This document shows, in pieces, positions 23,829 to 27,027 of a stretch of DNA of 64,000 nucleotides (position 1 is its first letter; each line of letters begins with the position of its first letter). Made by a program: the position numbers and the translations under genes. Origin of the DNA: Thermus sp. 2.9. Its GTDB lineage: Bacteria > Deinococcota > Deinococci > Deinococcales > Thermaceae. The notes below the pieces were generated by a model. The model was not told where the DNA came from. It saw only the letters and a list, made by a program, of their open reading frames with translations, and searched no databases. The stretch is taken from assembly GCF_000794385.1 (NCBI RefSeq), contig NZ_JTJB01000003.1:186001-250000 (forward strand), given 5' to 3'.

Positions 23829-24266
23829 CTAGCCCATGCGGGCTTCCAGGTACTCCCGCTCGCCCAGGACGATCTTCCGGGCCAACTCGGGGTCCTTGGG
23901 GAACTCCTTGCCCCGGTGGATCATGTAGGTCTCGTAGCGCCCGATCTCAAAGACCTCGGCCAGCTTCTTCAGGGCCTTGGCCATGTCAAAGGCCTTGCAG
24001 GAGAAGATGTCAATGGAGAGGAAGCGCTTCTTGGGGAAGGTGTGGATGGCGATGTGACTTTCGGCGATGATCACCACCCCCGTCACCCCTTCTTCCCCGT
24101 TGGGCCCGTAGCTGTAGACGAAGGGGGGAAGCACCTTGGTCATCTCCATTTCCTCGGGGAGCTCGTCCAGAACGCGGCGCACCAGCTCGGCGTCCCGGAG
24201 CTTGGCGGGGTTGGCGTCGTACCCGTCCACCATGAGATGCGGACCGAATCCGAAGAGTTCCACCAT
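23829..24266 (-). CDS. speD: S-adenosylmethionine decarboxylase proenzyme
   Basis: Pyruvoyl-dependent enzyme of 145 residues that makes decarboxylated SAM, the aminopropyl donor for spermidine and the long and branched polyamines typical of Thermus. The self-cleavage site is the Glu-Ser in VIIAESHIAIHTFPKK near residue 70, and the conserved Cys is in FSCKAFDMAKAL. The ATG at 24266 is chosen over a GTG 6 nt upstream, because AAGGAGG is at proper distance from the ATG. Confidence 0.95.
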   Translation of the reverse strand: MVELFGFGPHLMVDGYDANPAKLRDAELVRRVLDELPEEMEMTKVLPPFVYSYGPNGEEGVTGVVIIAESHIAIHTFPKKRFLSIDIFSCKAFDMAKALKKLAEVFEIGRYETYMIHRGKEFPKDPELARKIVLGEREYLEARMG

Positions 24267-24316
24267 GACCACCTCCTTCCCGTGCCCCCCGGGGTATTCC
24301 CCGCGGCACGCCCCCC

Positions 24317-24345
24317 ATTATGCCCCCCCCTCCCCCCCCTGTCAA
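24317..24345 (-). promoter_or_regulatory. speD promoter with an all-purine G8-A-G8 spacer
   Basis: On the minus strand: -35 TTGACA (24340-24345), exactly 17 bp of spacer, -10 CATAAT (24317-24322). The spacer is eight G, one A and eight G. The -35 is perfect and the -10 differs by one base. Transcription should start about 40 nt before the ATG. Confidence 0.8.

Positions 24346-25293: not shown

Positions 25294-27027
<1,734 letters not shown>

Follow-up and report, generated by a model that had tools for sequence, protein, structure and literature searches.

Promoter spacers are commonly regarded as filler that has a favoured length. Does the spacer of the speD promoter in the window (the whole stretch of 64,000 nucleotides analysed here), built of eight G, one A and eight G, do more than hold two boxes apart? 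Read directly from the window, plus-strand positions 24317-24345 are ATTATG CCCCCCCC T CCCCCCCC TGTCAA; on the minus strand, from 24345 to 24317, this is TTGACA-G8AG8-CATAAT, upstream of speD. The first-pass annotation had reported 17 bp of G8-A-G8 between TTGACA and CATAAT at this place, and its coordinates and sequence are exact. The promoter and the parts behind it are as follows.

24340..24345, minus strand: -35 element TTGACA, invariant in 26/26 Thermus and in the 57/57 Thermales speD promoters read.
24323..24339, minus strand: spacer G8-A-G8, exactly 17 bp, defined by its sequence, its uniqueness and the comparison within Thermus and Thermales.
24317..24322, minus strand: -10 element CATAAT, defined by its sequence and the Thermus and Thermales comparison.
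24311..24316, minus strand: GGGGGG right behind the -10 element (discriminator region), identical in 26/26 Thermus.
24281..24310, minus strand: predicted leader hairpin CGTGCC...GGCACG with inner stem CGGGG...CCCCG, from fold prediction; outer arms and ATACCCCGGGGGGCACGG present in 26/26 Thermus.
24270..24277, minus strand: Shine-Dalgarno sequence AGGAGGTG, with GGAGGTGG in 26/26 Thermus.
23829..24263, minus strand: speD, coding for SAM decarboxylase, counted from its conserved start (here GTG); the longest listed frame begins at 24272.

The arrangement is that of a consensus sigma-A (sigma70-type) promoter, with TTGACA and a TATAAT-like box 16-18 bp apart upstream of a gene; promoters of this class start transcription about 7 bases past the -10 element. 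Sigma70 promoters with near-consensus boxes are strong; the speD boxes are near consensus, and a strong promoter is therefore expected. The encoded protein is recognised as a SAM decarboxylase by NCBIfam TIGR03330, with 83.3 bits where 75.65 are required, and speD is 90-96% identical to its counterparts in named Thermus species, which places the window in Thermus. Its divergent neighbour is the succinate dehydrogenase cytochrome b subunit, and a 577-residue open reading frame at 25294-27027 is, judged by operon order, probably the succinate dehydrogenase flavoprotein. The same genome holds a second, distant SAM decarboxylase gene next to a spermine-synthase-family gene; we label these two speD2 and speE. 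Among the 26 Thermus genomes the speD start codon is GTG in 17 and ATG in 8. At one locus (L021, genome G024) the conserved position holds ACG, and the sequence is identical in L044 (Thermus tenuipuniceus); translation of speD at L021 may start at this ACG or at a GTG inside the Shine-Dalgarno sequence.

Across the 26 Thermus genomes compared, some of which are closely related, the mean majority-base frequency is 1.00 for the -35 element, 0.975 for the spacer, 0.994 for the -10 element and 0.983 for the leader. The corresponding values are 0.63, 0.56 and 0.71 for three blocks of DNA lying 150 to 5 bases upstream, and 0.958, 0.969 and 0.857 for codon positions 1, 2 and 3 of speD. When 78-base segments were slid along a 20-kb stretch and scored against 15 other Thermus genomes, 3 of 3321 outscored the speD block, all three of them inside the 577-residue frame at 25294-27027; past about 27.7 kb the other genomes share little of this neighbourhood, and low scores there form an unfair background. 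The block from the -35 element to the Shine-Dalgarno sequence equals the best nearby coding DNA in conservation.

All 26 Thermus spacers are matched by an expression of G run, A and G run. Eighteen read G8AG8 followed by CATAAT, and in one G8AG8 abuts ATAAT directly; G8AG7 occurs with one C before ATAAT in three genomes and with two C in one, and G7AG8 with one C in one genome and with two C in two. Counted back from the six-base -10 element, the spacer is 17 bp long in 21/26 and 16 bp in 5/26. The central A is present in every genome, the longest run is 8, and within the runs no G is replaced by A or T. The first-pass annotation had proposed a comparison with other Thermus speD genes, in which spacers of ordinary composition would speak against a role for the tract; the 26 read are all of the form G7-8/A/G7-8, and its claim that the G tract matters is well supported by this conservation. 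On these comparative grounds, the speD promoter is under strong purifying selection from the -35 element to the Shine-Dalgarno sequence, with the spacer as a selected control element.

The element is also singular within the genome. G8AG8 with at most one mismatch occurs once in 2.40 Mb. A scan of the window with two mismatches returned 13 matches where 13.45 were expected, so that loose G-rich matches are ordinary and only the perfect G8AG8 match stands out in the window. The pattern TTGACAGGGGGN{9,13}NATAAT is found exactly once per genome in 26 of 27 Thermus genomes, always just upstream of the speD match; the single genome without it is 65% complete and has no speD hit. Homopolymers of G or C at least 8 long number 8 in the window against about 58 in a first-order Markov simulation, which makes them some seven-fold rarer, and two of the eight lie within the speD spacer. 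Those at least 7 long number 45 across the window (1-64000) against 142 by first-order Markov, about three-fold rarer.

Other promoters served as controls. A census of the window's own genome for TTGACA-N15..20-TATAAT gave no matches, and looser patterns were used instead. Seven groups of similar TTGACA promoters have a mean spacer identity of 0.67-0.86 against 0.96 for speD (12 genomes); the groups were chosen by eye for a similar spacer end and -10 element after automatic clustering had merged unrelated promoters, a choice that favours high identity and works against a reading by selection, while orthology is presumed and one group (G) is loose. Among 153 Thermus promoters of the form TTGACA-N16..18-TANNAT, speD excluded, 2 contain a G run of 7 and 2 a C run of 7 or 8; stretches of at least 5 are found in 49, compared with 27 after each spacer was shuffled. 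Five non-Thermus relatives were picked in knowledge of their speD spacers (four with a C run, one without), so that the unbiased control consists only of their 20 other consensus promoters: in these the longest G or C run is 5, the mean spacer G+C is 0.48, and C runs of 7-9 are found in 0/20. To judge from these sets, a moderate habit of G/C runs is general in Thermus, and runs of at least 7 are a mark of speD. Another G-rich spacer, TTGACA-GGGGCAGGGGGTGGGGGG-TAAAAT, precedes a gene whose product, at least 370 residues long, is likely exported (L085, G000:C1:9647-9676, minus strand).

Does the tract extend beyond the genus? When 111 genomes of the order were searched with the protein, 91 gave matches, many of them distant; 58 genomes had a close match (E 1e-44 or better), and 57 upstream regions were read, the other locus (L177) having no anchor. 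All 57 Thermales speD promoters read have the form TTGACA-N16..18-NATAAT. In the sister genus g5, represented by one genome, the spacer is G6TAGAG7 and the leader is nearly the same as in Thermus. In the other 30 orthologues a C run of 7-9, that is, a run on the opposite strand, occurs in 10, and 20 are without a run of at least 7. By group, C7-9 runs are found in 2/2 of g2, 2/2 of g3, 1/1 of g12 and 5/16 of Meiothermus (g4), and in 0/7 of g14 and 0/2 of family f2; orthologues outside Thermus and g5 that have no such run carry shorter runs or ordinary spacers. In Thermus and g5, then, the long run lies on one strand, and several related genera have it on the opposite one. This pattern of opposite-strand C runs or ordinary spacers argues against a non-template G-quadruplex as the common principle and favours either a property of the (dG)n.(dC)n duplex to which RNA polymerase responds or an operator specific to a lineage.

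The predicted hairpin, which ends just before the Shine-Dalgarno sequence, belongs to the conserved block. ATACCCCGGGGGGCACGG is identical in 26/26 Thermus and in g5, and the 5' arm of the inner stem differs in length by up to 2 bases between species. Three leader variants fold modestly better than their shuffles (z -2.09, -2.70 and -1.27); leader and gene start folded together do no better than shuffles (z -0.18). Folded to a consensus, 14 leaders (7 from g14, 7 of Thermus or g5 type) share only a 3-bp inner stem, with no compensatory changes; covariation thus does not prove the hairpin. Should the presumed transcription start lie at the G eight bases past the -10 element, the hairpin would form the 5' end of the mRNA; hairpins in that position can protect mRNA. 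An upstream reading frame in the leader was rejected, since the length differences of 1-2 bases in the 5' arm of the hairpin would break it. The other genera have different leaders, and short hairpins of the GCGGGG...CCCCGC type were also seen by reading in g12 and g14. A search of 11 loci (3 Thermus, 8 Meiothermus) against Rfam gave three weak matches, all far below the gathering scores. The Meiothermus leader (L035-L042, about 100 bases upstream of speD) is longer, well conserved by eye and without a match in Rfam, a candidate structured or regulatory RNA.

What, then, would the spacer do? We tentatively favour the reading that it is a selected (dG)n.(dC)n duplex element setting initiation at speD through RNA polymerase, with a confidence that stays somewhat below an even chance. 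The run occurs on either strand, and what these promoters have in common is therefore most simply sought in the double helix. A tract of (dG)n.(dC)n in the spacer would, like poly(dG).poly(dC), be stiff and difficult to melt; it would be prone to an A-like helix and could set the register, twist and melting of both boxes under sigma-A RNA polymerase. Spacer, G6 stretch and leader hairpin together would fix the output of speD, which is required for high-temperature growth. The central A would cap uninterrupted runs at no more than 8, so that the length of 16-17 bp would not easily be lost by slippage. Action through duplex and polymerase rather than through a bound protein, control of the rate, and the role of the A against slippage are steps that we infer. 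The suggestion in the first-pass annotation that the tract stiffens the DNA fits the either-strand pattern better than the G-quadruplex that it named alongside.

Published work offers partial parallels. An A-like CD spectrum is described for poly(dG).poly(dC) in PMC3317384. In E. coli spacer libraries, GC-rich spacers need negative supercoiling for spacer deformation, and the response to supercoiling is altered (PMC8695583). The likeness to speD is that spacer composition affects initiation while the boxes are unchanged; the libraries, however, consist of random spacers, whereas speD has a natural, selected near-homopolymer in a thermophile. Against the duplex reading stand the 20/30 orthologues outside Thermus and g5 that have no run of at least 7, from which it follows that the tract is not essential to the Thermales speD promoter. 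The G run of Thermus and the C runs of other genera may, moreover, be unrelated, and the invariance of single bases and of the leader would be explained equally well by a protein site.

Such a site is the main rival. A dedicated regulator that recognises G8AG8, or the whole region from the -35 element to the leader, and controls speD would account for the base-level invariance about as well as the duplex does, and we regard it as unlikely though far from negligible. Single bases of spacer and leader are near-invariant in the 26 Thermus genomes, the 3' part of the leader recurs in g5, and the element sits at one gene only. The spacer tract, however, is not palindromic, related genera switch its strand or composition while the boxes stay, and a regulator with one target per genome would need to be kept genus-wide.

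A bolder proposal dispenses with the regulator. Polyamines made downstream of SpeD would bind the tract, shift it to an A-like helix and lower initiation at speD, a direct feedback that we consider improbable. Put for the whole order, the Thermales speD promoter would be a polyamine sensor in which a (dG)n.(dC)n spacer of either strand changes its helix and shuts its own gene without regulator or riboswitch, a proposition that is doubtful to the same degree. T. thermophilus reportedly depends on SpeD1 for its long and branched polyamines and for growing above 75 C (PMC6418473), and the window speD is the putative equivalent. Transitions from B- to A-form DNA can be driven by polyamines, and the CD spectrum of poly(dG).poly(dC) is A-like (PMC3317384); the either-strand pattern also fits a duplex target. 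Selectivity is doubtful, however, as polyamines bind nucleic acids broadly, and the upstream stretches read for speD2-speE and two arginase-family genes in the same genome have no such tract. The last observation, made at putative gene starts, also speaks against the tract as a shared mark of polyamine genes.

A non-template G-quadruplex that forms in the spacer and tunes polymerase binding, the other half of the first-pass proposal, is very improbable and is the poorest fit to the comparative data. The pattern (four G tracts with short loops on one strand) does lie within the spacer in 26/26 Thermus. It is found within the spacer in 0/31 other Thermales read, in g5 only with the G6 behind the -10 element included, and the opposite strand has it in no more than 6/30; same-strand folding capacity is thus not conserved beyond the genus, and with C runs in several genera and no long run in many orthologues the proposal is weakened. 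The polymerase also needs a duplex spacer in order to read the two boxes, which counts against the quadruplex further. Potential G-quadruplexes have been described in Deinococcales and Thermales, a likeness in G tracts within the same phylum (PMC6200779). The Thermales candidates are reported there as randomly placed, whereas the speD tract has a fixed promoter position and a strand not conserved beyond Thermus and g5; two other Thermales candidates, long-looped unlike the speD spacer, did not fold (PMC6200779).

Equally faint is the prospect of a slippage switch, in which changes of run length would shift the spacing between 17 and 16 bp and with it the strength of the promoter. Its model is porA of Neisseria meningitidis, a proven poly-G spacer switch in which a G homopolymer lies between -35 and -10 and its run length sets spacer length (PMC3639595). 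Spacer length does vary between Thermus species (17 bp in 21/26, 16 bp in 5/26, with one genome per species). The porA tract, however, is uninterrupted (9-11 G reported), slips and varies expression, whereas that of speD is split by an A, has runs of 7-8 and is near-invariant across the genus (PMC3639595 for porA). There is a homopolymer between the boxes (G8-A-G8) and no uninterrupted tract of at least 9, the longest run being 8 in 26/26; the A kept in all 26 and the absence of longer runs would lower slippage, and switching would be odd for a housekeeping gene of biosynthesis.

That a G-rich genome with run-rich promoters made the spacer by chance or mutation bias has next to no likelihood: TTGACA promoters of Thermus often contain runs of at least 5 G or C (49/153) and looser G-rich matches are as frequent as in shuffles, but the spacer is conserved while upstream DNA has diverged, the element is unique in the genome and long runs are depleted elsewhere in the window, and by this conservation, uniqueness and depletion we rule out chance or genome style for the Thermus spacer.

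Within titles and abstract beginnings of an open-licence library, subscription journals lying outside, we recognised nothing on the Thermus speD promoter or on its conserved spacer of G runs; the porA promoter of the meningococcus, with its poly-G spacer, comes nearest as a precedent (PMC3639595). The speD promoter is a consensus promoter whose homopolymer spacer is probably functional. A near-pure G tract is fixed genus-wide at one gene only, several related genera have C tracts there, and the spacer provides a natural case for how the helix form of a spacer controls bacterial RNA polymerase and for whether a metabolite acts directly on promoter DNA. As RNA polymerase from Thermus serves as a standard model in structural and biochemical work, the spacer question is practical to test.

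A different arrangement is seen at two other genes of the same genome. Sequences resembling a -10 element (TATCAT/TACCAT) lie near or overlap the likely starts of the second SAM decarboxylase gene (L190) and of an arginase-family gene (L187), on contigs C35 and C3. With these gene starts taken as putative, the position suggests that both mRNAs are leaderless, unlike that of speD.
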